This document shows, piece after piece, positions 1 through 63,483 of a stretch of DNA of 64,000 nucleotides. The first letter of the stretch is position 1; each line of letters starts with the position of its first letter. Under the pieces are notes generated by a model. It had not been told where the DNA came from. It did not search any database and saw only the letters and a list, made by a program, of their open reading frames with translations. The stretch is from Liquidambar formosana (lineage: Eukaryota > Streptophyta > Magnoliopsida > Saxifragales > Altingiaceae): NCBI GenBank assembly GCA_039720395.1, contig CM077820.1:12733848-12797847 (forward strand), written 5' to 3'. The position numbers and the translations under genes were made by a program.

Positions 1-1517
1 TCACGTTGTTTCTCATGTTTGTGCTTGTTGGGATTTGTGTATTTTTTGTCCGAAAAAAGCCAAGGCAGATGGCAGAAGATGTAAGCGCGTTAGAAACAGA
101 AAACTCATTTTCAAAATGGAATTATGATGGGAAAATTGTGTATGAAGACATCCTTGAAGCGACAGAGGACTCTGACAACATGTATTGCATCGGTGTAGGA
201 GGATCTGGAAAAGTTTACAAAGCACAGCTGCCAAGCGGTCAGGTAGTCGCTGTAAAGAAGCTGAGTTCCATGACTGGAGACATGGAGATTGAGAATATGA
301 GAGCTTTTAAGAATGAGGTTGTAGCCTTAAACAGAAATACGACATCGAAACATTGTGAAACTTTATGGGTTTTGTGCTCACAGAAAGAATACTTTCTTGG
401 TTTACGAGTTCATGGAAAGGGGTAGCTTGGCTAATATGCTGAGCAATGAGACAGGAGCCAAGGAGTTGGGTTGGGTGAAGAGGGTAAATGTCGTGAAAGG
501 TGTAGCCCATGCCCTGTCTTACATGCATCATAATTGCACACTGCCCATAATTCACCGGGACATATCAAGCAAGAATGTTTTGTTGAGCTCCGAACTAGAG
601 GCTCTTGTCGCAGATTTTGGCACCGCAAGATTTCTGAAGCCGGATTCGTCTAATTGGACCACAATGGCAGGCACATATGGGTATCTCGCTCCAGGTATAT
701 AAGCTCTAGATGTTCTCTGTTTTGGTTTTTTATTTTTATTTTTCCTTTTCCTTTTTGAATTAAACACATCATATTCGGGACTTCTAAATCATTTTGGATG
801 GGAAACTTTTAACTTCAAATGTTATGAAGAACACAGTCAGCCCATTTCCATTCCATGTGACATCCAAGCATGCTTTTAATGAATTTCAAAAATGTCCACT
901 CTAATTTGCAGTCAAAATTTCGGGTAAAATGATGTTCTTTCCAAATGATATGGCAGTGACATGCATCTTAATTTGCAATAAAAGAGACATTTCTGGCCTT
1001 CTGGGCAATTTGTTTTGGAATATTGAAAGGACCCCGGCCCACTAGTTAGTAGTAATGGGGAGTCAAAATAAGGAGTTTGCTTTTGTAGCAGCATTCATTC
1101 TCCAGAGGAAATTTTTTATTTCCTTAATGTTTATTGTTGTACAATAGCTTCTTTTATAAATAAAGTCCCGAAACACCCATTTCCAGTTAACTTACCTCTC
1201 TTGTTGCAGAGCTTGCTTATACCATGGTAGTGACCGAAAAATGTGATGTTTATAGCTTTGGGGTTGTGGCACTTGAAGTATTGATGGGAAAGCATCCAGG
1301 CGAATTTCTTTCCCTTAAACATTCATCAGCTGATCAAAACATCCATCTACACGATGTGTTAGATCCTCGCCTCTCGCCTCCTACAAATCAAAAGATTGCC
1401 AAGGAGTTGGCTTTTTTGGAGAAACTGGCTCTTTCATGCCTACATGACAGTCTACAATCTCGACCGAGCATGCACCATGTGTCTCAACTCCTCGAAATGA
1501 AGGCTGCTTTTGACTAG
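1..1517 (+). pseudogene. LRR receptor-like kinase, C-terminal kinase half (5' end outside window), frameshifted
   Basis: Plasma-membrane receptor kinase of the LRR class, closest by recollection to the Arabidopsis MIK2/At4g08850 type (subfamily XIIb). The window opens in the transmembrane helix (LFLMFVLVGICVFF), then a basic juxtamembrane stretch. Kinase landmarks: glycine loop GVGGSGKVYKA, ATP lysine in VAVKKL, catalytic HRDISSKN, DFGTARFL, TYGYLAP. Exon 1 ends at 694 (ccag|gtatat) and exon 2 starts at 1210 (ttgcag|agctt), a phase-1 intron that rejoins as APELAYT; exon 2 holds [13 protein letters not shown] and QSRPSM and stops at 1515-1517. The frame shifts near 329-331, where an A run is one base longer than the kinase frame needs; the downstream half is open in another frame. 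That means a pseudogene or a sequencing error. Ectodomain and promoter lie outside the window. Confidence 0.85.
695..1209 (+). other. intron of the receptor kinase gene
   Basis: A 515-base phase-1 GT-AG intron between subdomain VIII (TYGYLAP) and the ELAYT segment, the position usual for this RLK group. Donor ccag|gtatat, acceptor tgttgcag|agc. It is AT-rich and holds no open frame I trust. Confidence 0.85.
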
Positions 1518-4119: not shown

Positions 4120-5472
4120 ATGGCTCAACGAGGCAGAGGTAGGGGCAGAGGAAATGCTATGAACATGGAGTTAGGGGCTGAAAATCATCCACCAGTGGGC
4201 AAACGAGATGATCCACCACAAAATCAGCAACAAGGAGATGAGATTGAAGCATTGAGAAGGCAAATTGAGGTCTTGATGGAGATGGTTCATCGACTCCAAC
4301 CTCCTAGTGAGGTCAATTATGAGTCCGAGGACATCGATACTTCTTTTGAGAATCCCTTTGGGGTTCACCAAAGAAGAAGACCTTTTATAGTGAAGCAAGA
4401 CTCCAAGTTGGAGTATAATATCAAAATTGATATTCCAATGTTTAGAGGAAGCCTAAATCCTGATGAATTTGTTGATTGGCTCTATTCCATCGAAAGAATT
4501 TTTGACTATTATGAAGTTTCCGATGAAAGGAAAGTGAAGTTAGTTTCTATTCACCTCCAAGGAAGTGCATCTTCTTGGTGGGAACAACTACAAATGGTTC
4601 GTCAAAGAAGTGGGAAAGGCAAGATTAGAGAGTGGAGCAAGATAAAAAAGAAGCTAAAGCACCATTATATTCCCTACAACTATATGCAAACTTTGTACAA
4701 GAAGTTGCATAACCTTAGACAACTTGGAAGTATTGATGATTACACCGAGGCTTTCTATCAACTACTTGCAAGGGTTGATCTCAATGAGAGTGAAGAACAA
4801 ATGGTGGCAAGGTATTTGAGTGGTCTTAAGCCTTCCATTTATGATGTTCTTATGTTGCATCCTTTGTGGACTGTTTCGAAAGCCTACAACCGAGCCTTGT
4901 TGGTAGAGAAGTAACATAATCAGAATGTTTCTAGAGCTGGACAGCCATACCAAAGCTACTCTAGAGGTGAAAATTCAACACAAGTTGAAAAGGGAAGTCA
5001 TATGGGTGCAAAACAACAAGCAAATGTTGCTCAGGTTGTTACTCCTACTCAAAATCAGTCTACTGCGTGTCGTGTAAGGGCTGGAAATCAGTTCCAAGAA
5101 GGGAATTTCAAGTGTTTTAAGTGTGGGGAACCGGGCCACAAGTCTACGGATTGTAGAAGGACGATGAGGGAGCGAAATAAAACACTTTTGATGGAAGAAA
5201 TTGCTGAAAATGTATGTCTTGATATGCCACCAACCTATGACCAGCTCTTAAATGAGGAGATTGGTGGTGATTTTAATCATGAAGATGGCATGGCACTTAT
5301 GATGAGAAAGACTCATCTTATTCCCAAGCATGAGACCGAGGAAGATTGGGTGAGAAACAATGTTTTCTATACAACTTGTAGCATTGGAGATCGGGTTTGC
5401 AACATGATTATAGATGGAGCAAGTTGTGAAAATGTAGTTTCTCAAGAAGTAGTAGACAAGTTGCATCTTTAA
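4120..5472 (+). pseudogene. Gag and start of protease of the Gypsy element, interrupted
   Basis: The first part (4120-4914) starts with an RG-rich tail (MAQRGRGRGRGN) and then a retrotransposon Gag core with the typical RGSLNPDEFVDWLYSIERIF stretch and WWEQL. An in-frame stop ends it at 4914. The second part (5002-5472) contains a CCHC zinc knuckle (CFKCGEPGHKSTDC) and a retropepsin-like site written IIDGASCENVVS, in which the usual DSG/DTG triad is altered. The stop and lack of polymerase mean this copy cannot make a full polyprotein. Confidence 0.85.
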
Positions 5473-5584
5473 ACTCATGAACACGCCCATCCTTACAAGC
5501 TTTCTTGGTTCAAAAAGGGGAGTGAGATCAAAGTTACCAAGAGGTGTTTGGTGTCCTTTTCTATTAGAAAGAAGTACTTTGATG

Positions 5585-6056
5585 AGTTTGGTGTGATGTA
5601 GTGCCTATGGATGTAGGCCATATTCTTCTTGGAAGACCTTGGCAATATGATTGTCAAACCATTCATGATGGGAAGAGAAATACCTGCATTTTTTCAAAAG
5701 ATGATCATCAATACACATTGCTGCCCATGAAGGAAAGGTCACTTCCTAAGCCTTCACCAACTAGTCTACTTACTTCCAAGGACCTCATGGTGGAAAGCAT
5801 TGATAATGGTGGTTTTGATGCCTTACTGTCATGTGATTATGAAACTGATTTGGGGCTTTCCACTGTTGTTTTTGAGTTTCCACCGCCATGTTTTGATGAG
5901 TTTCCTTGTCATTTATCTTCCGGATTGTCTCTTATGGATGATATGCCACCTATCTTTGATGAAGAATCCGAGGAAGTTTCTTTTACCAACATTACTCATC
6001 AAATTACTCCTTTGAAGGTGGTTGATTTTATTAGCAGTATCAACATGAATCCTTGA
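5585..6056 (+). pseudogene. Protease C-terminal region of the Gypsy element
   Basis: Contains the MDVGHILLGRPWQYD motif that follows the flap region in plant Gypsy proteases, then an acidic tail without known domain. It is out of frame with the preceding block. About 350 further bases to the 3' LTR hold no reading frame; reverse transcriptase would be expected there in a full element. Confidence 0.75.
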
Positions 6057-8972: not shown

Positions 8973-9297
8973 ACAGCATTTATGCTTGTGCAACTAGAAA
9001 TACTTAACCTTTCTTCGAACCAACTTTCCGATGATATACCCCTGCAAATTGGAAAGTTATCTCCATTGTTCAACCTAAGCTTGAAAAATAACAAGCTTTC
9101 AAGCCACATACAATTAGGAATTGGAATTGTCCAATTTGGGTCCAACCAACGTTGGTTGGACCTCTCAGCCAACATATGCTAACTAGGCCAATTCCAGATG
9201 AGATTGGGGACTGCTCAAAACTGCAAAATATATGCTTGTGCAACAAATTCTTGAATGGCAATATCCCCTGTCAGATCGGCAATCTTGTAGAATTATA
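8973..9297 (+). pseudogene. LRR-domain fragment of a receptor-like kinase
   Basis: Three to four plant extracellular leucine-rich repeats: LEILNLSSNQLSDDIPLQIG, LFNLSLKNNKLSSHI, a frame change, then PIPDEIGDCSKLQNICL and FLNGNIPCQIGNLVEL followed by a stop. The LxxLxLxxNxLxGxIPxxIG consensus is clear. It has no signal peptide, membrane helix or kinase attached and is broken at about 9178. It is probably a fragment duplicated from an LRR kinase such as the one at 1-1517, same strand. Confidence 0.75.
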
Positions 9298-9480
9298 GAC
9301 TTTGTTAGATTAAATTGCAAAATGATCACCAAAAGGTAATTTTTTTCAAAAAGTTTTCTATACCGTCATTCCACTATTTGAGCATGTGATTTGAAAGAAG
9401 AAAAAAATAAACGAAATAAAAAATAAAATAAAATTCTCATGTTAACACGTGGCATGTCTACAGGAACCCATTCCTCCATT
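9298..9480. other. Intergenic, nothing recognised
   Basis: AT-rich sequence with an AT run at the right end. Confidence 0.5.
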
Positions 9481-16078: not shown

Positions 16079-16300
16079 TACCAGAGGATTGTAACAAATT
16101 AGAGGATTGTAACAAAGTGTAACAGCTGTCCCGTTAGTTTCTCAGTTTGAATTTCTTCAAATTGTTGTTCCTTAGATTTAGGAAACAATTTCCACATGCT
16201 CTATATTTTAGGATCTCAAACACATGTTTCTTATCCCACTTGTGTATTTAAACTGCTGCAAATGTAAATGAAAGAAACAATTGATTTCCACCATTTTATA
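16079..16300 (+). repeat. 5' LTR of the Copia element
   Basis: 222 bases, ungapped match to 20621-20842. Contains a short internal direct repeat, agaggattgtaacaaa, twice at its start. Confidence 0.93.
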
Positions 16301-16316
16301 TGGTATCAGAGCAACC
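16301..16316 (+). other. Primer-binding site of the Copia element
   Basis: TGGTATCAGAGCAACC immediately after the LTR, the initiator tRNA-Met type. Confidence 0.9.
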
Positions 16317-16385
16317 ACAAGTGGTATAAGCCGATCCATTTTTTTTTTTTTTTTTTTCTTTCTCTTCCTCTGTTCTTCAGCACAA

Positions 16386-18500
16386 ATGGCTACCGAATCT
16401 GACCCTCCATACATCCTCAACACCAATGAACCACACCAAACTCTTATCAGCATCAACGTTGTTGCTCAAGCCCCTCTTAAACTCACCTCTACCAATTACC
16501 TCTCCTGGAAACTACAGTTCCAAACCTTCTTCATTGGCTATGACCTTCTTGGCTTTATTGATGGCTTCAAACCATGTCCACCAGCCACATTGACCCAATC
16601 CAATACAACCACCACCAATCCCAATTACATTATATGGACCAGACAAGACCAGCTAATCCTCAACGTTATCATTGGCTCCATCTCACCCACCATCATTCCC
16701 TTCATAGCTCAAGCCAAAACCTCTACACAAGCTTGGACAATTCTAGCCAACACCTATGCTAAGCCCTCTCATGGCCGCATCAAACAAATCAAAAACCAAC
16801 TCAAGAACACCACCAAAGGCTCCCTTAGCATTACTGAATTTATGCAAACCATCAAAACTCGAGCAGATGATCTTGCTCTTCTTGGAGCCTCCATTGATGA
16901 AGAAGAAATCACAGACAAAATCCTAGATCGTCTCGGTGATGATTACAAGGAATTAGTCCGCGTTGTCCAAGCCAGAGATACCTCTATCACTTTTGAAGAA
17001 CTTCACGAAAAACTCCTCAATTTTGAAGCCTCTCTTCAAGCAATCCCAACTGAGCCACACCATTTTCCAGCTACTGCAAATCCCACATATCGAACTAACA
17101 CCAAAAACTGGCATCCTTCTCAACCACAAGGCACTACCACCACCAACTGGCACCCATCCTTTAACTCAGCCAACCGCCCACCTGCTGCAACCAATGCAGA
17201 ACCTCATTCATCACAGGGCCCTCGTCCTCCTCCCAAACCATACCTTGGTCACTGCCAAATTTGCAGGATTCAAGGTCACACTGCCAAACGTTGTCCATCA
17301 TTTCGCCTAGTACCAGTTCACACTGCCAACACATCAAGCTCTTCTCAACCAGGCACACCATGGCAACCACAGGCTCACTTTGCCACTAATCCTTCCACCA
17401 CACCATCATGGCTTTTGGACAGTGGTGCTTCTCACCATGTAACATCTGATCTGAGCAACCTCTCACTACATGCTCTGTACATTGGCACTGATGACATCAT
17501 GATCGGAGATGGCTCCAATCTTCCCATCACCCACACTGGTTCCACCTCTCTCAAAACTCCTCACAGTACATTTACATTAAACAATGTTCTCTGTGTTCCA
17601 TCTATGAAAAAGAACCTAATTTCTATATCACAATTTTGCCAGTCTAACAATATTTCCATTGAGTTCTTACCATCCACTTTTCTTGTGAAGGAACTTCGCA
17701 CAGGAGCAACACTACTGAAAGGACGAACTAAAGATGGTGTCTATGAGTGGCCAAACTCCTCCCCTTTGATTGCCTTCTCCACAATAAAGACCACTTCCTT
17801 CGACTGGCACCATAGATTAGGACATCCTGCTTTTCCAATTCTCAAACATATTATTTCTAGTAATCATTTAGGCTTGTCTTCCTCTTTATCTCCTGATTTC
17901 TCATGTAATGCTTGTCTCTGCAATAAAAGCCACAAATTGTCTTTCTCTAACTCTACAATTGTCTCTACTAAACCTCTTGAAATCATATTTTCAGATGTTT
18001 GGACCTCTCCAATTTTCTCACATAATGGCTTTAAATATTATGTAATCTTCATTGATCACTTCACTAAATATATCTGGTTTTACCCACTCAAACACAAATC
18101 CGATGTCAATGAAGTATTTATAAGATTTAAAGCCATTGTGGAAAAACACTTCAATTTAACCATCAAAACCCTTTACTCTGACAATGGTGGTGAGTACATC
18201 TCTCTAGCTCATTTTCTTTCCATCAATGGTATCTCTCATCTCACCACTCCACCTCACACACCTGAACACAATGGGTACTCCGAAAGAAGACACCTTCATA
18301 TAGTCGAAACAGGCCTTGCCCTCCTTACTCATGCTTCTTTACTCCTCTCCTACTGGACCTATGCCTTTGCCACAGCCGTCTACCTCATCAATAGAATGCC
18401 CACTCCCACCTTAAATTTCTCCTCACCCTACCACAAAATATTTCTCACAGCACCAAATTACTCGAAACTAAGGGTCTTTGGCTGCTTATGCTACCCTTAG
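16386..18500 (+). pseudogene. Copia Gag-protease-integrase region
   Basis: The ATG at 16386 (MATESDPPYIL) is a better start than upstream ones, which lie in the LTR. Domains in order: Copia-type Gag (LTSTNYLSWKLQFQTFFIGY, TDKILDRLGDDYKELV), CCHC knuckle CQICRIQGHTAKRC near 17250, protease WLLDSGASHHVT near 17410, GAG-pre-integrase DWHHRLGHP, then the integrase core with Asp in FSDVW, Asp in SDNGGEY and Glu in the following YSERRH helix. An in-frame stop at 18498-18500 ends the frame just after the integrase core. Confidence 0.92.
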
Positions 18501-20613
18501 CTCAGACCTTACACATCACACAAACTCGAATCACCGTCTAAGCCTTGTGTTTTTCTTGGGTACTCTCTCACTCAAAGTGCATACTACTGCCTTGACCCTT
18601 TAACCTCAAGAATCTATGTCTCCAGACATGTCAAATTTGTTGAGTCTCAGTTTCCCTACTCTTCATTATCTGGTTCATCTTCTAGTCCTCATCCCAACAC
18701 CATCGCCACCTAGATTCCTGCACCAATTAGATTATCTCACCCTCTTCCCAGCCGCCACTCACTATGCCATCTGAAGTCATTGTCTGTCAGCAACCTCTAT
18801 GTGCAGCTCCAACACACTCTCCAGTGCATATTCCATCCACCAACACATTCCAAGCCACCCATCCAAACTCAATTCCCTTGCCATCCTCAACCATTCCAAC
18901 CCCACCTCAAATCATCCCAACCGAACCTCATCCCCCTCCAACACACTCAATGACCACCTGAGCCAAGAACCACATTTATAAGCCAATAACTAAAATGAAC
19001 CTTTATACCCAACTCTCAAAATCCAACGACCTTGAACCCACAACCATGACTAAAGCCCTTCGAGATCCAAAGTGGTGTCAAGCCATGTCTGATGAGTGTG
19101 ATGCTTTAGTTAGGAATGGAACATGGGAACTTGTTCCACCTGATTCTACACAGAATATAGTTGGGTATAAATGGATTTTTCGAATTAAACGTCACTCTGA
19201 TGGCTCTATTGACAGGTTCAAAGCATGTTTGGTCGCAAAAGGATTTCATCAAAGACCAGGAGTGGATTACCTAGACACTTTCAGCCCGGTTGTAAAACCC
19301 ACTGCCGTTCGTGTTGTCCTCAGCCTTGCTGTATCTCAGGGTTGGTCCTTACGCTAACTTGATGTCAACAACGCTTTTCTCCAAGGACACCTCTCCGAGA
19401 ATGTTTACATGCAACAACCACCAGGTTTTGTTGATCAAGATCATCCATCCTATGTCTGCAAACTTCGAAAGGCAATCTATGGCCTCAAACAAGCACCTAG
19501 AGCATGGTATCATGAACTTCGTACTTTCCTACTTCACTTTGGCTTCAAGAATTCTCATGCTGATACATCTCTATTTGTTCTCACTACTGTAGCCATATTA
19601 TGTATCTATTTGTGTATGTGGATGACTTAATAATCACTGGTGACAGTACTAAGATAATCGACTCCTTTGTTAATGTTCTTGCTCATCGGTTTTCAATTAA
19701 AGATCTTAGACAGCTATCTTATTTCTTGGGTGTGGAGGTAGTCCCAAATCAGCAAGGTATTTTACTGTCTCAAAGGCGTTACATTTTGGATATTCTGGCT
19801 CGAACTCATATGACTGATGCCAAACCCATGCTCACTCCCATTCCAACTAGCCCACCTCTGCTGTTAAAATCGGGCTCTCCTTTGTCTGATCCCACAGAGT
19901 ACAGAACAATTGTTGGTAGCCTTCAATATCTCTTGATTACAAGACCAGACCTTGCATTTGCGGTTAACAAGCTTTCTCAGTACATGCACACACCAACAAC
20001 TGAACATTGGAGCTTTGTTAAACGTCTACTACGCTATCTATGTGGAACTATTAATGAAGGCCTCCAAATACATCGTCAATCCCCATTGAATCTCTATGCC
20101 TTTTCGGATCATCTGCATCGTGACTTACCACTCCACTTACAAGCCTATTCATACGCCGATTGGGCAGATGACAAAGATGATTTTTCATCCACCAGTGCTT
20201 ATGTCATCTATCTTGGTCGCAATCCAGTCTCCTGGAGTTCTAAGAAGCAGAAAACGGTTGCTAGATCTTCCACTGAAGCTGAATACTGGTCAATGGCTAA
20301 TGCAGCTGTTGAGCTCAGTTGGCTTTGTTATCTTCTAACTGATCTTGGTGTTCAACTACCTTGCTGTCCTGTCTTATACTGTGACAATGTTAGTGCTACC
20401 CAACTCTGTTCCAATCCTGTGATTCACTCTAGAATGAAACATGTTGCCATCGATTTTCACTTCATTAGGGACCAAGTCCAAAATGATGTCCTTCGTGTTG
20501 CTCATGTGTCTTCAGCAGATCAACTTGTCGATGCACTTACCAAGCCTCTTCCCCGTGCTCGCTTTCTTGATCTCAAATCCAAGATTGGACTTCTATCTCG
20601 AGCTCCATCTTGA
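18501..20613 (+). pseudogene. Copia reverse transcriptase and RNase H region, with stops
   Basis: Integrase tail with a Pro/Ser-rich stretch containing stops (about 18.5-18.96 kb), then the reverse transcriptase: [34 protein letters not shown], a stop at about 19356, [18 protein letters not shown], and after a frame change near 19590 the catalytic YVDD. RNase H follows with SYADWADDKDD, SSTEAEYWSM, and ends in ADQLVDALTKPLP close to the 3' LTR. Three or more lesions make this copy unable to produce a full polyprotein. Confidence 0.92.
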
Positions 20614-20620: not shown

Positions 20621-20842
20621 TATCAGAGGATTGTAACAAATTAGAGGATTGTAACAAAGTGTGACAGCTGTCCCGTTAGTTTCTCAGTTTGAATTTCTTC
20701 AAATTGTTGTTCCTTAGATTTAGGAAACAATTTCCACATGCTCTATATTTTAGGATCTCAAACACATGTTTGTTATCCCACTTGTGTATTTAAACTGCTG
20801 CAAATGTAAATGAAAGAAACAATTGATTTCCACCATTTCATA
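20621..20842 (+). repeat. 3' LTR of the Copia element
   Basis: 222 bases, followed by CCACC, the second target-duplication copy inside the P450 exon. Confidence 0.93.
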
Positions 20843-22296
20843 CCACCATCTTCATCTGCATGTATGCAAACTTTTTCCCGGCCTACACACAACCTCGGTC
20901 CACCGTTAAACACAACGTATTTGAATTGGTTCTCGCTCATGAATTGCCCGTCTTTGATCCACCTCTCTGGCTTAAACTCCAAGCAATCTTTGCCCCATAT
21001 GGATTCCATTCGAGCCATCGAGTAGGCGCAGAAGAAAACCTGAGCACCCTGCTCCACTACTGCCCCGTCCAGGAACACATCTTTTTCTAGAGCCTCTTTG
21101 AAGTCAATTTGCACCGATGGATAGAGCCTGAGGGATTCTGATAATGCCACTTGTAAGTACACCATTTTCTTCAATTCTTCCATTGTGAAAACCACGTCAG
21201 TAGGCTCTTCCTTCGTAGAGTTGCGGTGACTCAAGATTTCATTGATTTCACAGAGAATTTTGCTTTCCACTTGTGGGTTTTTATGTATTAACCAAAAGAA
21301 CCATGCCAATGCCACGGAGCTTGTGTCTCGCCCAGCTAATATAAAACTTATGCAGAAATCTCTTAGAAAAGTATAGGAGAATTGAATTTTCTCACCTTGA
21401 TTATCTGGGTTTTTGATCTGCATAAACCTTAATAAGAGATCAGATCGGTCATCCACGGTGCCAATCTTACTTAATTCCATCCTTCGATCTGCCACCATCT
21501 GTTCGACGAAATCATGTACAGTTAGAACTGCTTTCTTGAGCCGCTTCTGGGACCCTACTCCAAAGAACTTCATGGGCTTCCATATAAAAGGTGGCGCCAA
21601 AAATCTAAACGTAGTTAATTCCGTGGCTTCCTCAAAACCTTTCGCAAAAGGAACTTCGGGTAAATCAGGGGCTAAGCACCCTGGATCAGCGCCAAATGCC
21701 ACTGTACAAGTATTATCAAATGTAAACCGAAGAAGCACTTCTTGCAAATCAATGCGATCTCCCGAATTTGCCAGCTTCTCAATTAGATGTAACAATTTTT
21801 GGTGCACCAAATCCTGCATTGTATGCAAAGAGTACTTCGCAAACCGGCTTGCATGCGGCTCGGAAGATGCAATTCGCCTTTGGTCCTTCCACAATTCATC
21901 ATCAGCATTAAAAATGCTGTCTCCGAGCAAATCATGGAACCTCTCTCTGTAGTACTTGCCTTTGGGGAAGTATTTGAACCTTGTCTTGAGCATGTACTCG
22001 ATATTGGAAGGATTAGAGGTTACGACGCCGTATGCTCCAACCATCCACATTCCTCTGTAGTGGAATGTGCCACCGGTCTTGATGAGCCATTTGGTGACCC
22101 AATCATAGATGTCATTGATGTGAAGAACCAGGGACGGTATGATCCCGATCATAGGCCATAACATAGGACCCTTGTTGGTGAGCCTTTGAAGTATACAACT
22201 GAAGATGAATAGTCCCAACAGAGCAACAGCTATGTCAGAGAACCACAAGTGAGAAGACACCCAGTCCAATGCATGGAAAACAAGTTTCCTCGTCAT
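20843..22296 (-). pseudogene. CYP86B-like fatty-acid hydroxylase, main part, interrupted by Copia
   Basis: Membrane-bound P450 of the CYP86 clan; CYP86B members omega-hydroxylate very long chain acyl groups for suberin and cutin in the ER. ATG is the complement of 22294-22296. Residues about 17-36 form the N-terminal anchor. Motifs: I-helix AGRDTSS (321-327), K-helix ESLR (387-390), FKPERW (441-446), heme loop FNGGPRLCVG with the ligand Cys at 470. Just after the heme loop the frame shifts by one extra base in a GGGAAAAAG run near 20885; in the other frame FAYMQMKMV follows. The Copia element then cuts the gene. The exon continues at 15904-16073, giving about 540 residues before damage. No intron is visible. 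Confidence 0.93.
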
Positions 22297-24375: not shown

Positions 24376-24846
24376 AACGAAGCACCATTCTCCTTTTCCT
24401 TTCCAAACTTCAAATGACCATGACATTCCCCAATAAAGTGCCACCGGCGACTTCTGAAGTGTGGAATCTCATTTCTTTTCAGACCTTCAAAAGTAGGCTA
24501 AAAAGATTGTTGTGAAAATTTTCTTTTCCAATGGTGGGCTTTAGGCATATTAGTCCTTTCGGCACGGTAGTTTTAATTGCAAACTTTATGGACTGACCAC
24601 TGAGGTAACAATATATAGGTCAATTAGCAAGACTTTCGGAATGTACACGGCATAGGCCTTGCAGCGTGGCTTGAACCATAATCACCGCAATATAGGAATA
24701 ATTGATCTCAAACCATTAATAGTGTAGGTGGATGAGAGATTTGCTAGAAGAATTTAGATTAAAATGAGATTTCAATGCTAAATTATGGTGATAGCTAAGG
24801 GTGCAACATGGTTCAGGTAGATCCGAGAATCAAATTGGTCCGATTA
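24374..24846 (+). repeat. Peptide-gene upstream block, copy B
   Basis: Matches copy A from cgaagcaccattctcctttt to the start of the hAT MITE (ctaagggtgcaacatggttc at about 24796), then breaks off and joins directly to copy C. Confidence 0.85.
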
Positions 24847-25216
24847 ATCCCTAATAAAGTGCCGCCGGCAAGTTCTGAAGTGTGGAATCTCATTTCTTTT
24901 CAGATCTTCAAAAGTAGGCTAAAAAGATTGTTGTGAAAATTTTCTTTTCCAATCCTGGGCTCTAGGCATATTGGTCATTTCGGCACGGTAGTTTTAATTG
25001 CAAAGTTTATGGACTGACTATTGGGGTAACAATATATAGGTCAATTAGCAAGACTTCCGGAATGTACACGGCATAGGCCTAGGAGCGTGACTTGAACCAC
25101 AATCACCACAATATAGGAATAATTGATCTCAAACCATTAATAGTGTAGTTGGATGAGAGATTTGCAGGAAAGATTTAGGTTAAGATGGGATTTCAATGCT
25201 AAACTATGGTGATAAC
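24847..25216 (+). repeat. Peptide-gene upstream block, copy C
   Basis: Starts inside the block at ataaagtgccgccggcaagt and runs to the hAT MITE. Direct tandem of copy B, period about 470 bases. Confidence 0.85.
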
Positions 25217-25613
25217 TAAGGGTGCGACATGGTTCAGGTAGACCCGAGGACTAGACTGGTCCGATTAATTCAGTCCGGTCCAAACAATAATCGGTCCAAT
25301 CAATAATTGGTCCAGTTTTAGTTCAAATTTTAAAGTCCCAAATTAGTTAGGTTTTAGAATCGCATCAGACCAAATTCCAAAATATATATATATATATATA
25401 GTAATATTAATATTTTATATTATACTCCATGAATAAGTATTATTCAATGAATAATAATACTTATTCAATAATTTTCTTACATTTTACCAAAAAAACAAAA
25501 CCCAAGAACTGGACCATTTTTCCAACCGGTCCGGTTCTAGTTCAAATTTTAAAGTCCCGAATTAATTCGGTCTCATCCAGATATTCCTCTGGCCAAATTG
25601 AGTTACACTCTTA
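25217..25613. mobile_element. hAT-type MITE
   Basis: 397 bases with ends TAAGGGTGCGACATGG / TTGAGTTACACTCTTA. Flanks gtgataac (left) and gtgataga (right) are a near-match eight-base target duplication, as expected for hAT. An internal AT run (25382-25400) marks where the truncated copy A element ends. Confidence 0.75.
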
Positions 25614-26502: not shown

Positions 26503-26587
26503 TATACACACACACACACAGATATATATACATACATATATATATGTATATATATGTATATATATGTACGTATGTATGTATGTATGC
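26503..26587. repeat. Compound CA/TA/TATG microsatellite
   Basis: (AC)n then (TA)n with TATG and TATGTACG interruptions, about 200 bases upstream of the peptide gene start. Confidence 0.9.
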
Positions 26588-26739
26588 ACAAAAGAAATTA
26601 TGGTTGCCCCTAAAATGGTGAATTAATTCTAAATCAAGTTTTAAAATGTATGCTTTAAAATGGCCTCTTTATAGCTCTCAGGTCTTGGGTCAAGAGGACT
26701 TTAAATTTATGAGAAAATGAAAGGCCAACCACCCTTGGG

Positions 26740-26747
26740 TTATATAC
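26740..26747 (+). promoter_or_regulatory. TATA box of the repeat-peptide gene
   Basis: gggTTATATACTctgct, 51 bases before the ATG. The same sequence context (cgggttatatata, ctctgctgag) precedes both paralogues at 57.95 and 61.04 kb, so the core promoter is conserved across the family. Confidence 0.75.
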
Positions 26748-26790
26748 TCTGCTAGGTCTTGAACATGCATGCCTCTCTATGCTAAGAAAA

Positions 26791-26905
26791 ATGGCTTCCA
26801 AGAAGTTAAACATTTTTTGGGTGGGTCTCTTAATTGCCATGGTTCTCCTAGCTTCAGAAGTTGTAGCAAGAGAACTGCTTGGGACCTCCAAGCCCTATAT
26901 GACCT
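26791..26905 (+). CDS. Secreted tandem-repeat peptide precursor, exon 1 (signal peptide)
   Basis: First exon of a two-exon gene whose second exon is 27728-28146. ATG at 26791 is the first ATG after the TATA box that stays open (the upstream one stops after six codons). It encodes MASKKLNIFWVGLLIAMVLL then ASEVVA, a textbook signal peptide with likely cleavage after residue 26, followed by RELLGTSKPYMT. The exon ends in phase 1 (gacct|gtaag). The paralogues at 58014 and 61335 encode nearly the same residues, including SKPYMT just after the cleavage site. The product should enter the secretory pathway. Confidence 0.88.
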
Positions 26906-27727
26906 GTAAGTCTGTCTCCCTCATGTAGCTTCCATAATAATAATAGGGCGATGTCATGTGAGTCCATGTAGGTGGTAAGCGGATCATTGTTAAACACCTT
27001 AGTAAGTGCATGTAGGTCAAGTGTTTGAAATTTTACAATAGCGTTTGATCCCCTTTAGGGCTACACCAAGGCCCGAAGAGTCTAGTAAGTGCCTGTGGGA
27101 CGAAAGGGATTGCATGTGTCCAAGGGATTGGTTGTGGGCACTGTAGCCTTAAGACAGTTAGACATGTAGGTGGTAAGCCTGTCTAAATGTCTCCCTCATG
27201 TATGACTTGTAAGTCTGTCTCCCTCATGTTGCTTCCATAATAATAATAAGGTGATGTCATGTGAATCCATGTAGGTGGTAAGTGGATCATTGTTAAGCAC
27301 CTCAGTAAGTGCATGTAGGTCTAGTGTTTGAAATTTTACAAAAGTGTTTGATCCCTTTTAGGGCTACACCAAGATCCGAAGAGTCTAGTAAGCGCCCTGT
27401 ACATGTGGGACGAAAGGGATTGCATGTGTCCGAGGGATTGGTTGTGGGCACTGTAACATTAAGACAGTTAGACACCCCTATAATCAGGAAGAAAAAAATG
27501 TAGGAATTCTGTTTGCAAAATATCATTTCTTTTTGGATGAATGAAATAATCAAATATAAATTAATGAGGTAAAAACATAGTTGTCTCTCGAAAATCATAT
27601 TTCTGGGGATCTGATGTAGGTTACATTAGGACTTTTAATTAATCTTAGCCCTTTAACAATATACATACACATACAGTCACAATCTAGCTTGTAAGTTGAT
27701 CATATGGCATTTATCTGGTTTTTCCAG
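26906..27727 (+). other. Intron of the peptide gene, with internal 303-base duplication
   Basis: 822-base GT-AG intron (gacct|gtaag ... tttttccag|acg). The segment from 26906 is repeated from 27209, including a second gactt|gtaag donor-like site. The duplicated part contains a retroposon-like stretch (gggattgcatgtgtcc...gggattggttg) similar to the tails at 46.66 and 49.63 kb. Confidence 0.85.
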
Positions 27728-28146
27728 ACGCGGAGTACAGGAAGTTCATTGCTGCCAAAGCTGCTGATCCTCCTCAGGGATACAATATTGGCGGCATTAT
27801 TCTTCAAACTGCTGATTCTCCTCAGGGACACATTTTTGGCGCTTCTCTTCTCAAAGCTGCTAATCCTCCTCAGGGATACAATATTGGCGGCATTGTTGTT
27901 CAACCTGCTGATTCTCCTCAGGGACACAATTATGGCACTTATCTTCCTAAAGGTGCTCATCCTCCCCAGGGATACAACAGTGGCGGCACTGTTGTTCAAC
28001 CTGCCGATTCTCCTGAGGGACACAATTGTGGCACTTATCTTCCTAAAGGTGCTAATCCTCCTCAGGGATACAATTTTGACGGCACTATTCGTCAATCTGC
28101 TGATTCTCCTCAGGGACACAATTATGTTGTTCCTTTTGTTCGCTAA
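27728..28146 (+). CDS. Secreted tandem-repeat peptide precursor, exon 2 (eight 16-residue repeats)
   Basis: Joined to exon 1 (t|ac) it reads YAEYRKFIAAKA and then eight units of exactly 16 residues (last one 15) up to the stop at 28144-28146, total precursor 177 residues. Odd units are ADPPQGYNIGGIILQT-like (PPQGYN core); even units are ADSPQGHNYGTYLPKG-like (DSPQGHN core, with Lys near the end of three). No ATG starts this frame within the exon, so single-exon ORF calling finds only the two wrong frames, which are also open because the repeat has no stops. The layout of signal peptide, linker and repeated Pro/Gly motifs ending in HN or YN resembles precursors of plant signalling peptides (CEP, PIP and IDA families have related SPxGxGH- or HN-type ends), but I do not recognise this family and no function is claimed. 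Confidence 0.87.
27763..28143 (+). repeat. 96-base tandem repeat, four units, inside exon 2
   Basis: Units 27763-27858, 27859-27954, 27955-28050, 28051-28143. Each unit encodes one PPQGYN and one DSPQGHN half of 16 residues. No indels break the period, and changes are mostly at interior residues (for instance IGGIILQ/SGGTVVQ), while the P-Q-G core is kept; one unit has PEG in place of PQG. Confidence 0.92.
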
Positions 28147-35842: not shown

Positions 35843-36769
35843 CTAAATTGCAGGATGATATTTTTTTAGAAATCGGCCATTGATAGGCCGATCATGGATG
35901 TCGCCATCCAAATTTTGTAGGTGATAAGCTCCACCCTTTAATACCTTGAAAATTTTGAAAGGACCTTCCCAATTGGGAGACCACTTCCCGTACTTGGGAT
36001 CTTTTGACCTAACAGGTAATACAGCTTTCCAAACTAATTCATTTTCAAGAAAATCCTTAGGCCGAACTTTCTTATCATAGGCTTTTTCGATTTTTCTCTT
36101 TTGGGCTTGTAAATGGTCCAATGCTAGTAGCCTAACATCATCTAGATCATCTAGTTCGGCCAACATAGCATCATAATAATCTTGTACACTTAAATTGTTT
36201 TGCTTAGCAAGCCTCAGAGACCGAACCGTTACTTCCATAGGCAAAATCGCATCATGTCCATAGGTCAAGATGAATGGGGTGGTACCTATACTAGTTCTTT
36301 TAGAATTTCGGTAAGCCCACAACGTTTCTGAAAGTAATTCATGCCATGCTCGAGGATTCTCCTCAATCATTTTTTCTATACTAACCTTCAAAATCTTATT
36401 TGTTGATTCGGCCTGTCCATTAGCTTGTGCGTAGTAGGGTGTTGAATGCACGATTTCAAAACCGTACTCCTTAGCAAACGCCTTTACCTCACTGCCAGTA
36501 AATACTGTACCCTGATCGGCAGTGATAGTCTGGGGTAGACCGAATCTATGAATGATGTTTTCTTTAATACATTTTATCACTTCCTTTTGAGAAACCGAGG
36601 GCATAGGAATGGCTTCTACCCATTTAGTAAAGTAATCGGTTGCTACTAAAATAAAGGCATCCCTTTTGGACGATTCTGGGTATATCTTGCCGATTACATC
36701 CATTGCCCATCCTCTGAACGGCCAAGGCTTTACTATGGATTGTAGTTTTATTGTAGGTGCATGTTGCAC
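35843..36769 (-). pseudogene. Integrase of the Tat-like element
   Basis: DDE integrase core on the minus strand: first Asp in GWAMDVIGKIYPES, second Asp in ITADQGTVFTGSE, Glu in NGQAESTNKIL; then a C-terminal chromodomain-less tail with WSPNWEGPFKIFKVLKGGAY. Ends with a stop at the left. It is separated from the preceding H2C2 part by a stop at about 36790. Confidence 0.9.
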
Positions 36770-36790
36770 TGGCCCATGAATTTGACAGGC

Positions 36791-37210
36791 TTAACAGCCT
36801 TTAGCATACTCCAAATAATCTTTCATTATATTCGGCCAATAATAGCTGTACCTTCTAATGAGCCATCTCGTCTTAATACCAGCCTGGTGTGCCCCACAAA
36901 TGCCTTCATGAACTTCGGCCATGATTTGCGTTGACTGAAACTTAGAAAGGCATAAGCACAAAAGGCCATCCACATTCTTTTTATATAATTCATCATCTAA
37001 AATGACAAACTTTAAAGCCCTTTTCCTGACCTTATACTCGGTCTGAATTGATGGATTTTGTAAGTATTTTATGATCAGAAATCTCCAATCATCCTGGGCA
37101 ACATCTAATGATAATACTAATTCATTTGGGCCAAATATGTTCCTTAGAGATGACTCTAACCTCCTTTCTATAGTAATTGTCCTGTTAAGAACACTTACAG
37201 GGATTTTCAA
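36791..37210 (-). pseudogene. RNase H to integrase junction with H2C2 zinc region
   Basis: Minus-strand frame with DWRFLIIKYLQNPS, then HEGICGAHQAGIKTRWLIRR and YYWPNIMKDYLEYAKGC, the H-H-C-C zinc motif that precedes Gypsy integrase. Confidence 0.85.
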
Positions 37211-37359
37211 TCCAGAAGCTGGGCTAGTTCATTTGCTTCATTATTTTCTTTTCTCGGGACACATTTGAATAAAACATCAGCAAATAAACCTAACAAATAT
37301 TTGGCGATCCTATTATATTCAACCAGAGAATTGCTCATACATTTGAAGTCACCAGATAG

Positions 37360-38190
37360 TTATTTTAAAATTAATTGGGAATCTCGAATAACAAGAATAT
37401 TTGATACATTTAAATCCACCAAAATGCTGAGGCCGATAATAAGAGCTTCATATTCGGCCTGATTGTTTGTACAATCAAAATCTAGTTTAAAGGAAAACTG
37501 AGTCCTTTTGTTCATTGGGGACACCAGAACTACACCGGCTCCAGCCGATTCTTCTGTTCGAGACCCGTCAAAAGTCAAGATCCACGATACTAAAGAAATA
37601 CAACCAATCTCCATAGTCGGCAAAATTTCAAGGACTTCTCCCAAATTGGGGTGGCTCGCTAAAAAATCGGCCAAAGCTTGGCCTTTCATTGCCTTCTGGG
37701 GGGTATATTGCAGACAGAATTCGATAAGAACTAATGACCATTTTGCAATTTTTCCCCTTATAATCGGTCTACTTAACATGTACTTCACCACATCAGTTTG
37801 ACATATTATATAAACCAAAACAGGTAACATATAATATCTTAACTTAATACATGAAAAGTACAAAGCCAAACAAAGTTTTTCAATCGGTGTATATCTACAC
37901 TCGATTTCATTCAACAGTTTACCAAGAAAATAAACGGCCTGCTCATGCCCGTCGTCCATATCTTGAGCCAACAATGCTCTAATCGATTCTTCAGCGGCCT
38001 ATATGTACAACTTCAAGGGTTCTCCTTGCTTGGGTGGCATTAACACCGGTGGCTTTGTAAGATATTCTTTCAACTGGTCAAATGCTTCCTGATGCTGCCT
38101 ATCCCACTTGAAGTCATCCTCCGCCCGTATCTTCAGCAGAGGAGAGAAGGCTTTGGTTCGCCCTGCACAATTAGAAATAAAACGGCGCAA
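37360..38190 (-). pseudogene. RNase H region of the Tat-like element
   Basis: Two minus-strand pieces. 37999-38190 carries DFKWDRQHQEAFDQLKEYL, the region after the RT thumb; 37360-37974 carries the first RNase H (RYTPIEKLCLALYFSCIKLR) and a second RNase H domain (LTFDGSRTEESAGAGVVLVS, NNQAEYEALIIGL). Two RNase H domains are a feature of the Tat lineage (established knowledge), supporting the assignment. Stops at about 37975 and 37360 interrupt it. Confidence 0.8.
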
Positions 38191-38199
38191 GAAATTAAT

Positions 38200-38910
38200 T
38201 TAATCGAGAAATCTTTGAAGTTCTTTTTTATTAGATGGTGGTTGTGCATTGATAATCACTTTTGTTTTGTTTTTATCAACTTCAATCCCCCTTTGGTGGA
38301 CAAGATAACCCAAAAAGTTTCCAGCTGACACACCAAAGGCACATTTTAAAGGATTCATTTTTAAACTATGGGTACGCATTCTTTCAAAAGACTTCCTTAG
38401 ATCGGTCATATGGATGTCCAGATCCGAAGATTTAACCACCACATCATCTATATAAACTTCCATAAATTTTCCTATCATATCGTGGAAAATATAATTCATG
38501 GCCCTTTGGTAGGTTGCCCCAGCATTTCTTAGGCCGAATGGCATTACTACCCATTCAAAAGTTCGAATGCTACCTGGGCACCTAAATGCTGTTTTCTGTA
38601 CATCATCTTTGGCTATAAAAATTTGATTATAACCTGAATGACCATCCATGAAAGATAATACTTTGAACCCAACGGCTGCATCGACCAACATATCAACCAC
38701 AGGCATTGGGTACTCATCTTTTGGAGTGGCTTTATTTAAATCTCTGAAGTCTATACACACCCTCAGTTTTCCATTCTTTTTCAAGACTGGAACGATATTT
38801 GAAAGCCATTCCACATACTTGGCTGTTCTAATAAACCCGGCCTTTAATAATCTCTCTGTCTCCTCCTTTACTTTGAGTACCATGTTAAGTTTCAACTTAT
38901 AAGTGGAGGG
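38200..38910 (-). pseudogene. Reverse transcriptase of the Tat-like element, 5'-truncated
   Basis: Minus-strand frame with LKAGFIRTAKYVEWLSNIVP, CIDFRDLNKATPKDEYPMPV, MDGHSGYNQIFIAKDD, MPFGLRNAGATYQRAMN and catalytic YIDD, then NFLGYLVHQRGIEVD. Sense stops just upstream of KLKLNMVLKVKEE at about 38910, where the sequence changes to unrelated AT-rich DNA: the truncation point. Confidence 0.9.
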
Positions 38911-40750
38911 CCCAAACAAATATATGAAGTTATGTCAAATTCAATATTTGGGTGATGTGGGATGTGGTATATTTCCAACAAAACATATGTTCGAATAAAA
39001 CACTAAACACCTATAAAATAGTTATATATGCAAATATACATCAACGAGTCATCCAAAAAATAAAATAGTGACATGAAACTTAATATGATTCAAATTCAAA
39101 ATACTTTAAAATATTCAAAACTGAAACCTAATAGTTAGTCAACAACATTTAAAAATCTATTACAAAAATTGAAAATTATGTAATTTTCATCTCATGTTTT
39201 TTTCACGTATATTTTTTTGCTGGCATAAAACAGTTACATGCTATTTTGAAAAATAAGAATTCTTATGGTAGAAAAACAAGGAGAGAATCTTGGGAGAAAA
39301 ATAACCAAAATAAGGAGGGTAAGGTTATGGAAGAATTGCTATGGGAGAGAAATTAGGAGAGAATCTTGGGAGAAAAATGAGGAGAGAATAAGAATAAAGA
39401 TAGAATTTTGTGAGAAAAATAATCGGATTGCTATGATGGATATTAGAGGTTATGGTCATAGGAAAAAAACAATGAAAGAATTTGTGATTATATGGTAAGG
39501 GCATTTTGTCCTACTATGTTTCGTTTGACCTAAGGTTGGAAGCGTTTTTTAAAAAGGTCTTAAGGGTCTTCCAATTTGGACTTGAGCCCAGACGCCCCTT
39601 AAATAAATTGAAGCTTAACTAATCCTTATTACAGCATAATAACTATTGCTAAGCTTCCTACTTATTCCACAATTGATCTATATATAGTCGTGTGTAATAA
39701 CTTAGATATCATGAGATAATAAAAAAGGTTGGTGGAAGGTTGTGTGCTTTTGGCGTTATTATCTTTCTCATGAATTTTCACTGTGTCAACTGTTAAAATT
39801 TTGTGTGTTTTGCTGAAAAGTTTCAAAACTTATTCGTTTCATATATTGCCTTTATTGGCTGAAATATTATTGTTAGGTTTTAATAATGAGAAAATTAGCG
39901 AGAAGTCCAATATTTAATACTTATGGAAGTATAAGTTTATGATAAAAACTTATATAGCCATAAGTCTACTTTTAAGTGAAACGGTTGCATGTGTTTTTGT
40001 GAGAGTTTTATTTGTATAAATTCAATTATGTCCTTAAGTTGTTATTTTTTATTTTCAAACTTTAAAATACATAATTTTCAATCTATTTATCGGTTTTCAA
40101 TAAAACTTATATTTTTGAAATCTATTCTTCAAGATCTTCAAAACAAGACCCATAATGATTATGAAATTATTTATTAAAAAAAAAAAAACAATTACATTGA
40201 GTACATATAACTATTTTGAAATAGTTACTTGTAATTGTTTTTGTGATGATTCAATTATCACACAAAACACTTAAATTTATTAAATGTAACCTATAAAATC
40301 AGTTAAATTTATGTTTTTGAAACTAAAAACAATTAAATTAAAATTTTTTGTGTTTGAATTTACATATTTGTGATTAAATGTAACTCTTTTTTAAAATAGT
40401 TACATGTAACTATTTTATTGTTTAGTTCAAATTCCTAAAATAAAGGTAAAAATCCTCTTTTTTTGGCCCAAAAGTATATTTTAACGTTGTAATCATACTC
40501 ATTTGTTGAGGAGTTAATATGTTCTTAAGCAAATCAATCAACAAACGCTCTTTATTAATTGATATACGAAAGACAAAAAATAAGATTTAGAAAGGCACTT
40601 TGAAGCCTTGGCCGAATTTTGCAGGTTCAATCGACAAAGAAAAAGAGGCAATGAGTCCCACGAATAAAAATACCTCACATTCATCTGCCCGATCTAAAAG
40701 GTAAGAGTATTCCACCAGCTCTGCCATTTTTTGAAGCACATCGTCTCTTT

Positions 40751-46728: not shown

Positions 46729-47565
46729 GATCTGTTACTAACATAATTGGACACATAAATTTCACTTGCCTCTCTATAACTTCAGGCTACTTTCTATCAT
46801 TTTATTCTATTTGATTTTATTATGTTTAATGGTGTATATTTATTTTGTTTCGTTCATATTCTATATAATTGCATGGATTATAGTTTCGATTGGTATTGTT
46901 CTATAAATTGTTCTATAGATTTGTATTGTTACTAACATATTTTATTATTTAGTTTGTTCGAACATCAACTACCAATCATCATCCTCCACGACTACCAATC
47001 ATCATCATCACTGATACTTGTCACCTATTATTAATTTGCACCACCCACCCATCACCACGTACTAACACGTCACCACCCAAGAATCAACTCCAATTTAATC
47101 ATTGCCACCTTAGTTTATTTTTTGGGTAATGTTATTTCACCAACATTCTCTCACCCATTCATATGTAGTAGTTTCTTTTTATTTTATATTGGATCTCACA
47201 TGATTGCTTTCATCTATACACTTTTGACACAAGGTGGCTGTAAAAAATGAGTAATAAAATGGGAATTTTGGTCAAAACCCCTATGTATAAAACTTCTTTT
47301 ACAATAGGCTCTAAATAAGAATTAGTTTTGTAAAAACCCCTTTCAACCTCGTACGAACCAAAAAGCCCCTCATTTTATTGTTGGAAGTACTTACAACCAT
47401 GCCATTGTACTATTCATACTCGAAAATCAGGGATATCATTAACAAACCCACCATAATTTTCAACGACTTATATAGAAATAGAATCCTAATAAAAAAACAA
47501 TCTTCCAAATGCACAAAATCACATTTCAAACGTATAAAGTGGAAACAACTTACTATATACATAAA

Positions 47566-48160
47566 AATCAAACCATATAAACATATAGGTATATTTAAAA
47601 ATATACTAGTATGTGTAAAATAATCCCAACAGTATTGTGTTACTATCCATAAATTAAATAATCATAAACTAAACTAATGGCAATATCGTGTTACTGTCAT
47701 CAGTAAAAAATTGAATTATACTTACATTGAAAAAATGCAGAAAAAATTAGCATATACATAGAAATCAAACCATATAACCATATAGGTACATATAGAAACA
47801 TACTAACATGTGTAAAATAATCCCAGTAGTATTGTGTTACTATTCATAAGTTAAATAATCATAAACTAAACTAATGATAGTATCATGTTACTGTCATCAG
47901 TAAAAAATTGAATTATACTTGCATTGAAAAAATGCAAAATAAAAAAATAAAAAAAAATCAGCATATATATAGAAATCAAACCATATAACCATATAGGTAT
48001 ATATAGAAACATACTAGCATGTGTAAAATAATTCCAACAGTATTGTGTTACTATTCATAAGTTAAATAATCATAAACTAAACTGATGACAGTATCGTGAT
48101 ACTGTCATCAGCATAAAACTGAATTACACTTACATAAAAAAAAATGCAGAAAAATGAAAT
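47566..48160 (+). repeat. Three ~200-base tandem repeats inside the Mutator-like element
   Basis: Units begin at about 47566, 47762 and 47972 with aaatcaaaccatataa and share gtattgtgttactat and actgtcatcagtaaaaaatt. Each contains an acagtat/gtgttactgtc type short inverted motif. Confidence 0.8.
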
Positions 48161-57465: not shown

Positions 57466-57708
57466 TGGGAGAGGATCAGTGCTGAGTTGATAAAACTCAG
57501 CATAGTGCGAAGGTAAAATGGACCTTTAATAGATTTTGGATGGCTTGGATTTAAGTATCAAAAAATTGTCCATTGAAGCCATTTTGGTAATTTCAGTAGT
57601 AACTTTTGATCTTTAAATCCGACCCATCCAAAAACTAATCAAATGATCCATTTCACCTCTGCACCGTGTTGAGCTTATAAAACTCAGCACTGAATCCTCT
57701 CTCTGCCC
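57466..57708. mobile_element. Foldback MITE, family S, copy 1
   Basis: Inverted ends around gagaggatcagtgctgagtt / aactcagcactgaatcctct; flanked by AAATAAC on both sides (57459-57465, 57709-57715). Central part aaaattgtccattgaag. Lies about 300 bases upstream of the paralogue exon; its copy in unit 2 is at 60557-60800. Confidence 0.8.
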
Positions 57709-57954
57709 AAATAACAATGGACACGGCCGGCAGTCTTCCGGAATGGACACGCATATATGAACGCCTAGTCATGCACAAATTCAACGTCAAAATTTGAAAT
57801 GTGTGGTTTAAAGTTGCCTCTTAATAGGTCTCAAGTATTCTTGTGCACGAGGACGAGCTTTGATCGAATTCATGAGAGAAAAGGCGGTCAACTACCTCGG
57901 GTTATCTTAGGAAAAAAAAAAAAAAAAAAAAAAACCAAAGGACCATCCTCCGGG

Positions 57955-57963
57955 TTATATATA
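57955..57963 (+). promoter_or_regulatory. TATA box of peptide paralogue 2
   Basis: cgggTTATATATAgtctgctgag, the same context as at 26740 and 61041. Confidence 0.7.
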
Positions 57964-58013
57964 GTCTGCTGAGTCCTCAACATGCCTCAATTTGTATGGC
58001 TCTAATAAGAAGA

Positions 58014-58178
58014 ATGGCTTCCAAGAAGCTACACATTATTTGGGTGGTTCTCTTGATTTTCATGCTTCTTCTAGCTTCAGAAGTTGCTGCTGCAAGGATC
58101 TCCAAGCCTTATATGACTCCTAAGACAACTACCTCTCCCTCAAGTTTTTTTTTTTTTTTTTTTTTTGGTGCAAAATAA
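58014..58178 (+). pseudogene. Peptide-gene paralogue 2, exon 1, donor lost
   Basis: Start chosen at 58014 by homology (an in-frame ATG at 57996 would add six residues). Encodes MASKKLHIIWVVLLIFMLLL, ASEVAAARISKPYMT: a signal peptide and the SKPYMT motif as in the 26.8-kb gene. Where that gene has gacct|gtaag, this has gactcctaag, so the GT donor is gone; reading through gives PKTTTSPSS, a Phe run and a stop at 58176-58178. No PPQGYN/DSPQGHN repeat exon is found downstream. Probably a broken copy, though it could give a short secreted product. Confidence 0.75.
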
Positions 58179-58188
58179 ATTGGGAATG

Positions 58189-58222
<34 letters not shown>

Positions 58223-58843
58223 TATACTTTTCCAGATGGAAGATGCTGTCATTACGAAAATTTTTAGGCGGATTGCCCGATTTCCTATATGTCTAGAACT
58301 AATGTGGTGAAGTACTTTTGGAATTATTGAGAATTTGAGACTATATGGTCACCTGTTTTTGAAAAATAAAATAAAATAAAATAATATTTTATACCGTATC
58401 GATCAACCCTAACTTCAAGTTCCGTGAATAGCACCCCCTAGAGGTCTTAAACTGACAAGAATACAGGCTATTTCCGTGAATAGCACCCCCTAGATTTTTT
58501 TTTTTTTCCTTTTTTCTTTTATATATTTTTGTTTTATTTTCTTCATTGTTTTATAGAGCTCCAGGACGCAGGATTTTACTCCAGTATGTGTCATTTTCAA
58601 TTAGTTGTTACTATTTTATCTTAATTCTAAATGTTTAGAAAATCAATTACCTTCAATACGTAACAAGAAATTTTTTTTTTCTTGCTTCACAATAACAAGA
58701 TAAAAGAACACATTAAACTAACAATGCATAGAAAAGGCTTTTTTCTAATCTGTTAGTAGCGTTATACTATATTCCAAATTGAAAAAAAAAAGGCTAAAAG
58801 CCCAAGTACATGAGAGCAAACATTAGAACTAAAATATCTATCA

Positions 58844-59050
58844 ATTATACTCAAGCAAAAGACCACTTTTGCACCTGAGACATTCAAACAAATAAGAGAA
58901 AAAAAAAATTTACTGATTTTTTTTCCTTTTTTTTTTTTTTTTTGTAATTACTTATTTGTACGTACACCCTAAAATAAATATTTGGCAACCCTATTTTCTT
59001 ATTTGTTTGAATGTCTCAAGGGCAAAAATAGTCTTTTGCTTAAGTATAAG
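58844..59050. repeat. Inverted repeat within duplication unit 1
   Basis: Arms 58844-58901 (tcaagcaaaagaccactttt, gacattcaaacaaataagag) and 58992-59050 (tttcttatttgtttgaatgt, cttttgcttaagtata) face each other over about 90 bases of T/A runs; copy in unit 2 at about 62175-62380. Foldback MITE or MITE relic. Confidence 0.7.
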
Positions 59051-61334: not shown

Positions 61335-61440
61335 ATGGCTTCCAAGAAGCTACACATTATTTGGGTGGTCCTCTTGATTTTCATGCTTCTTCTAGCTTCA
61401 GAAGTTGCTGCTGCAAGGATCTCCAAGCCTTATATGACTC
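61335..61440 (+). CDS. Peptide-gene paralogue 3, exon 1 (signal peptide)
   Basis: ATG at 61335 opens MASKKLHIIWVVLLIFMLLL, ASEVAAARISKPYMT, 35 residues, identical to paralogue 2. Unlike paralogue 2 the donor is intact (gactc|gtaag). An acceptor after a 100-base intron (cttttccag|atgg, exon at 61541-61572) would give a 45-residue secreted product ending HGRCCHYENF with a stop at 61570-61572. That second exon is unrelated to the repeats of the 26.8-kb gene and rests on splice-site look only. Just upstream (61308-61334) a second copy of the exon-1 end (gctgctgcaaggatctccaa) remains from a local duplication. Confidence 0.6.

Positions 61441-63431: not shown

Positions 63432-63483
<52 letters not shown>

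Follow-up and report, generated by a model that had tools for sequence, protein, structure and literature searches.

A Clustered Family of Two-Exon Genes for Putative Secreted Peptide Precursors in Liquidambar formosana, with a Repeat-Expanded Member

The CEP, PIP/PIPL and IDA/IDL families of plant peptides are made as secreted precursors with short cores of proline, glycine, serine and histidine, and in this they are like the Liquidambar formosana genes described here. CEPs are recognized by a C-terminal SPG(I/V)GH in the consulted part of PMC4526919. Another group, the SCOOPs, comes from PROSCOOP precursors with a signal peptide and divergent sequences around a short motif, encoded by tandemly clustered genes of two or three exons, and their receptors are MIK2-type kinases (consulted parts of PMC6382344, PMC8448819 and PMC11331138). 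The excerpted text of PMC11331138 reports SCOOPs and true MIK2 from no plants other than Brassicales, and the portions of these sources consulted contain no description of SCOOP genes interspersed with MIK2-type kinase genes. A precedent for clustered, promoter-sharing peptide and receptor genes comes from poplar, where, as excerpted from PMC3975113, the orphan secreted peptide gene RISP is clustered with an LRR receptor gene and has a promoter region in common with it; the likeness drawn below is one of gene arrangement, with peptide sequences no part of the comparison. In the reading favored here, which we hold to be rather probable, the locus harbors a gene of two exons that belongs to a so far undescribed family of secreted precursors in L. 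formosana, the peptides of which would act on LRR receptor kinases.

The window, a stretch of 64,000 nucleotides (C1:12733848-12797847 of the 718-Mb L. formosana assembly), contains the gene termed copy b at C1 12760638. An earlier note had proposed that two of its segments are spliced into a 177-residue protein and that the true frame has no ATG in exon 2; the first was borne out by reading the splice from the sequence (115 + 419 nt, a GT-AG intron in phase 1, 177 residues and a stop), the second by reading the joined frame. The repeat region is also open in two other frames (156 aa on the plus strand, 139 aa on the minus strand), so an open frame is by itself no proof. The frame is supported by eight separately read paralogs (c, d, f, g, h, j, k and l), all of which keep the exon-1 frame and the phase-1 donor and open exon 2, like b, with a linker of the Y-R/K-K type. 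Exon 1 would thus encode a signal peptide (judged by eye in copy b) and a short pro-segment, and exon 2 a basic Y-R/K-K linker followed by P-x(1,2)-G-H-N motifs. The structure of exon 2 of b alone, predicted without alignment, has a mean pLDDT of 48.7, too low to be informative.

The array of copy b consists of four 96-bp units, or eight units of 16 residues, in register. TRF reports a period of 96, 3.9 copies, 88% matches and 0% indels, and the units as written out agree with the eight 16-residue units free of period-breaking indels described in the note. The conserved P-Q-G-[HY]-N cores claimed for them are exact in six of the eight, unit 2 reading PQGHI and unit 6 PEGHN. The lysine that had been noticed before the PPQGYN units is present in all four, at a spacing of 32 residues, and these are the sole lysines of the array; beyond the linker, K or R occupies 6 positions. 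In units 5 and 7 the sequence YLPK-G matches, letter for letter, the IDA cleavage site as given in the part of PMC13157962 consulted. The eight-motif gene probably arose when a 96-bp unit with two motifs was duplicated in tandem. Synonymous to non-synonymous variant codons number 3:4 in the core and 0:20 in the flanks within b, and 4:9 and 2:21 when b, a and c are pooled; a Fisher test of variable columns in core versus flanks gives p 0.0024 with the core picked post hoc, and a best-block permutation gives p 0.064.

When the exon-1 protein was searched against the whole genome with a tool that scores its best candidates, 19 of the 19 matches listed fell in one cluster, 12 on C1 (12.47-12.89 Mb) and 7 on contig C131, which is probably the other haplotype. 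Of the 17 occurrences of the 15-mer CCTCAGGGATACAAT, 10 fall within 12.59-12.89 Mb of C1 and the other 7 on C131. With paralog k as second query, 22 matches were obtained, 20 of them inside the cluster; the two others, weak ones on C10, look unrelated when read by eye, and we take them to resemble phytocyanin signal peptides. Two-exon genes that look intact, all with a common intron phase, are read at nine of the 12 C1 loci. The broken loci are a (start codon gone, junction frame shifted), i (exon 2 absent) and e, which judging by its sequence is probably non-functional, and exon-1-like relics with stops lie at C1 12612565 and 12648803. Copies a, c and d were read on C131, where c is again intact; in the C1 copy of c, exon 1 sits 12.3 kb upstream of exon 2. 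Paralog d ends early, and motif-like sequence continues in another frame.

Two local duplications were seen in the window. The intron of copy b contains a direct duplication of about 270 bp (26898-27164 and 27201-27474, 91% identical), with the exon-1 donor inside the first copy and a GTAAG donor-like site added by the second; both copies are present in the C131 copy of c and apparently one in copy a. Exon-1 copies e and f are carried by a tandem duplication of about 3.1 kb (about 57700-60790 and 60790-64000, by eye), the unit of which is single copy on C131.

Table 1. Location of the peptide genes, their parts and the neighboring kinase genes (window positions unless a contig is named)
Feature	Location	Strand	Remarks
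Copy b, upstream region with family promoter boxes	26570..26790	+	alignment of the upstream regions of nine exon-1 loci
Copy b, exon 1	26791..26905	+	putative signal peptide and short pro-segment; phase-1 end
Copy b, intron	26906..27727	+	GT..AG, phase 1
Copy b, exon 2	27728..28146	+	linker, eight 16-residue units (PPQGYN / DSPQGHN cores), stop codon
Paralog e, exon 1	58014..58118	+	donor GT lost
Paralog f, exon 1	61335..61440	+	exon 2 past window end, C1 about 12798717
Paralog f	C1 12795182		intact
Paralog l	C1 12473088	minus	intact
Paralog j	C1 12508475		intact
Paralog k	C1 12515526		intact
Paralog g	C1 12661716		intact
Paralog h	C1 12694946		intact
Paralog c	C1 12830933; exon 2 from about 12843243		intact
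Paralog d	C1 12886994		intact, 115 aa, four units
MIK2-related LRR receptor kinase	C1 12707266-12709821	minus	
MIK2-related LRR receptor kinase, 3' part	C1 12732023-12735364; window 1..1517	+	starts left of window
MIK2-related LRR receptor kinase	C1 12810962 onward		852 codons open to intron, matching last exon; intact
MIK2-related kinase	C131 from 186528		partly read
LRR ectodomain fragments, same kinase kind	8991..9310	+	tblastn

Units number eight in b and c and four in a and d, and six of the nine intact C1 members (f, g, h, j, k and l) are proteins of 62-74 aa in which one or two short motifs occur. The product of f, for example, has 63 aa and ends GLTTALPPVGHNVGNPNRP. The tails read KGPVPPSSPAVGHNVGTPNNP in h, SRGLTTALPPVGHNVGNPNRP in f, AEGAHAPRGHNVRSHNS in j, GPVYAAGPPEGHNVRTIHE in k and AGPPEGHNE in l; that of g, TTPPAPRGHYHKLAQPPSVHNVYTIHE, contains variants only and lacks the exact core, which counts against the favored reading. 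P-x(1,2)-G-H-N is present in five of the six short tails, where residue shuffling gives it at 0.1-0.9% per tail, a count biased upward because the acceptors of j, k and l were chosen by a filter demanding a GH/GY- or YRK-like tail. Other acceptor candidates existed for j and l. Exon 2 of h was taken from three acceptor candidates with no motif filter, and that of f and g was located by tblastn with h. The acceptors chosen for g, h, j and k are independently supported, since the 250 bp preceding them align at 85-93% identity in six of six pairs. When exon-2 DNA of h, f and g was compared with that of b or d, at most 1 of 500 dinucleotide shuffles did as well in five of the six comparisons, the weak one being g with b (14 of 500). 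Copy b is one of nine apparently intact paralogs, and since six of them carry no more than two motifs, its eight-fold repeat is to be seen as elaborating a shorter precursor and not as the defining trait; within a family of P-x-GHN precursors, copy b is best described as a member with an expanded repeat.

The kinase genes of the cluster are termed MIK2-related only, since PMC11331138, in the part consulted, reports no MIK2 homologues outside Brassicales. In a PDB search MIK2 (8weg, E 3.5e-150) and GSO1 (6s6q, E 1.3e-150) scored equally. A protein-database search with a neighboring kinase found an L. formosana protein with which it shares 99% identity across 88% of its length, and many of the relatives listed bear the name MDIS1-interacting receptor like kinase 2-like, so that the names speak for MIK2-like. 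The kinase at C1 12732023 has one frameshift in its kinase part, near window position 325.

Two of the four kinases examined, those at 12732023 and 12810962, carry the proximal promoter of the peptide genes. The kinase and paralog i promoters match over 56-58 bp at 83-84% (E 4e-13), and a second box matches that of e over 27-28 bp at 93%; no minus-strand match appeared in the comparison of kinases with peptide genes. The 60-bp element was matched 12 times across the 258 kb of C1 that were searched, ahead of eight peptide loci, two exon-1 relics and two of the kinases. Upstream of copy b a TATA-like stretch can be made out by eye near 26741-26747. The arrangement differs from that of RISP, where an LRR-RLP serves as receptor and the common region lies at -700 to -1000 (PMC3975113, as excerpted), in that the L. 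formosana receptors are kinases and the shared region is proximal. Several observations count against the favored reading: the promoter is absent from two of the four kinases, one of its carriers is frameshifted, paralog f has its promoter box about 240 bp farther upstream than the other copies, the peptide copies a, e and i are broken, constraint is not visible between b and c (see below), and related ligand families signal via subclass XI kinases and not MIK2-like ones, according to the part of PMC4526919 consulted.

The sequence itself shows the gene structure, the family, its clustering and the shared promoter; we infer expression, cleavage, a ligand role and the identity of the receptor. 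Under the favored reading, the copy b protein would be secreted, and proteases would cut after the lysine preceding each PPQGYN, every 32 residues, and perhaps further after the N of GYN or GHN, yielding at most four pieces of 32 residues, or shorter peptides. The released peptides would act on LRR receptor kinases, with the MIK2-related kinases of the cluster as first candidates. The family would most likely be one of secreted peptide ligands resembling CEP, IDA and PIP. A more specific proposal, for which our expectation is tentative and on the low side, is that the cluster forms a ligand-receptor complex in which P-x-GHN peptides are the ligands of the co-encoded, same-promoter MIK2-related kinases and copy b delivers a multi-dose signal. 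If true, MIK2-like kinases of plants other than Brassicales would thereby gain a class of ligands. With SCOOPs and true MIK2 reported from Brassicales alone in the text of PMC11331138 consulted, the nine concrete precursors, the short common core and the intact same-promoter kinase gene that the cluster offers bear on what related kinases perceive elsewhere. The cluster also appears to show a single-motif precursor grown into an eight-motif one.

Protein-database searches with b and with an alignment of b, c and d gave no match at E<=10 among proteins of about 97-310 aa, a range that does not take in proteins of 60-75 aa, and b had no match in PDB at E<=10. No Pfam family was above cut-off for the members tested. 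The interpretation in the note is partly borne out: there is support for a secreted precursor with repeats, plausibly processed into peptides, from a family that Pfam does not recognize above cut-off and that no protein of that size range matched; the repeat is no longer its defining trait. The strings PPQGYN, DSPQGHN, DSPQGH and SPQGHN did not occur in the literature searched, and occurrences of PPQGY look unrelated by title. The GRP family (PF07172) matched over the signal peptide at E 0.13 and 13.4 bits in b and at E 0.16 and 13.1 bits in h, short of its gathering score (cut-off 30), and XYPPX matched below cut-off at E 1.5 in b and 0.027 in d. Together with the repetitive, P-, G- and Y-containing makeup of copy b, these sub-threshold matches are what a structural or repeat-rich secreted wall protein (GRP/PRP-like) might give, its tyrosines perhaps cross-linked and the chain not cut into ligands. 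That alternative has to contend with six intact paralogs of 62-74 aa that retain a GHN-type core without any repeat array, and with the clustering and common promoter with receptor kinases, and we consider it improbable.

The two exons differ in how they have changed. For exon 1, comparison of f, g, h, j and k gives dN < dS in all 10 pairs. Exon 2 of g, h, j and k is 49-72% identical, below its flanks in six of six pairs (85-93% for the 250 bp of intron preceding it, 78-88% for the 250 bp beyond the stop); for the four pairs that involve f, the corresponding values are 57-65% for exon 2, 39-56% for the barely alignable intron and 64-74% for the 3' stretch. Exon 2 is fast-changing, but positive selection is not proven: its dS is high too, with dN above dS in a single pair of 10, and misalignment or an exchange of exon 2 between copies may contribute.

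Copy b was not found on C131 by either the 15-mer or the exon-1 protein search, and if C131 represents the second haplotype, b would be present on one haplotype only. Between b and the C131 copy of c, its nearest paralog, dN is 0.030 and dS 0.032, a ratio near 1 in which constraint is not visible, though the 16 differences in 531 sites are too few to establish neutrality. These two observations, and the broken state of three of the 12 C1 loci, would suit a copy b that arose recently by duplication and is non-functional or under relaxed constraint, with only some of its sisters of consequence; set against the intact start, splice sites, 177 codons and stop of b and both copies of c, that seems to us a minor prospect. 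Secreted antimicrobial peptides, not directed at plant receptors, are very unlikely: the products would be secreted and the genes are tandem with a fast-changing exon 2, but the b repeat has no cysteine pattern and few basic residues, and a promoter common with kinases fits signaling better.

The favored reading as ligand precursors invites comparison with known motifs. The CEP likeness suggested in the note is real in style (SPAVGH in h beside SPG(I/V)GH in the portion of PMC4526919 consulted) and not exact, the other nearest strings being LPPVGH in f and SPQGH in b; SGPS, GxGH and SPG(I/V)GH have no exact occurrence in the family. By reading, the PIP/PIPL and IDA/IDL core S(G,A,V)PS is absent from b, c, d, f, g, h, j, k and l, and the genes of those families are intronless, whereas the L. 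formosana genes have one intron. Under the loose definition of SGP-rich ligands in the excerpted PMC4154866, the L. formosana cores share proline, glycine and histidine, with serine in part of the motifs. The family has the exon number, the signal peptide (by eye) and the tandem clustering of PROSCOOP genes, and its P-x-GHN cores, on reading, lack the SxS (or SxT) motif. Soybean GmPep914, which has a short precursor not known to carry a signal peptide, contains DHPRGGNY; DSPQGHNY of the b repeat has D-x-P-x-G-x-N-Y in common with it, an eight-letter likeness that may be chance.

Elsewhere in the window, LTR-retrotransposon-like open frames were seen by eye at 4120-6056, 16281-20613 and 35843-38919, and tandem repeats at 24427-25269 (421 bp, 2 copies) and 47555-48154 (197 bp, 3 copies). 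A long open frame on the minus strand at 20773-22296 resembles a cytochrome P450 of the CYP86 kind.
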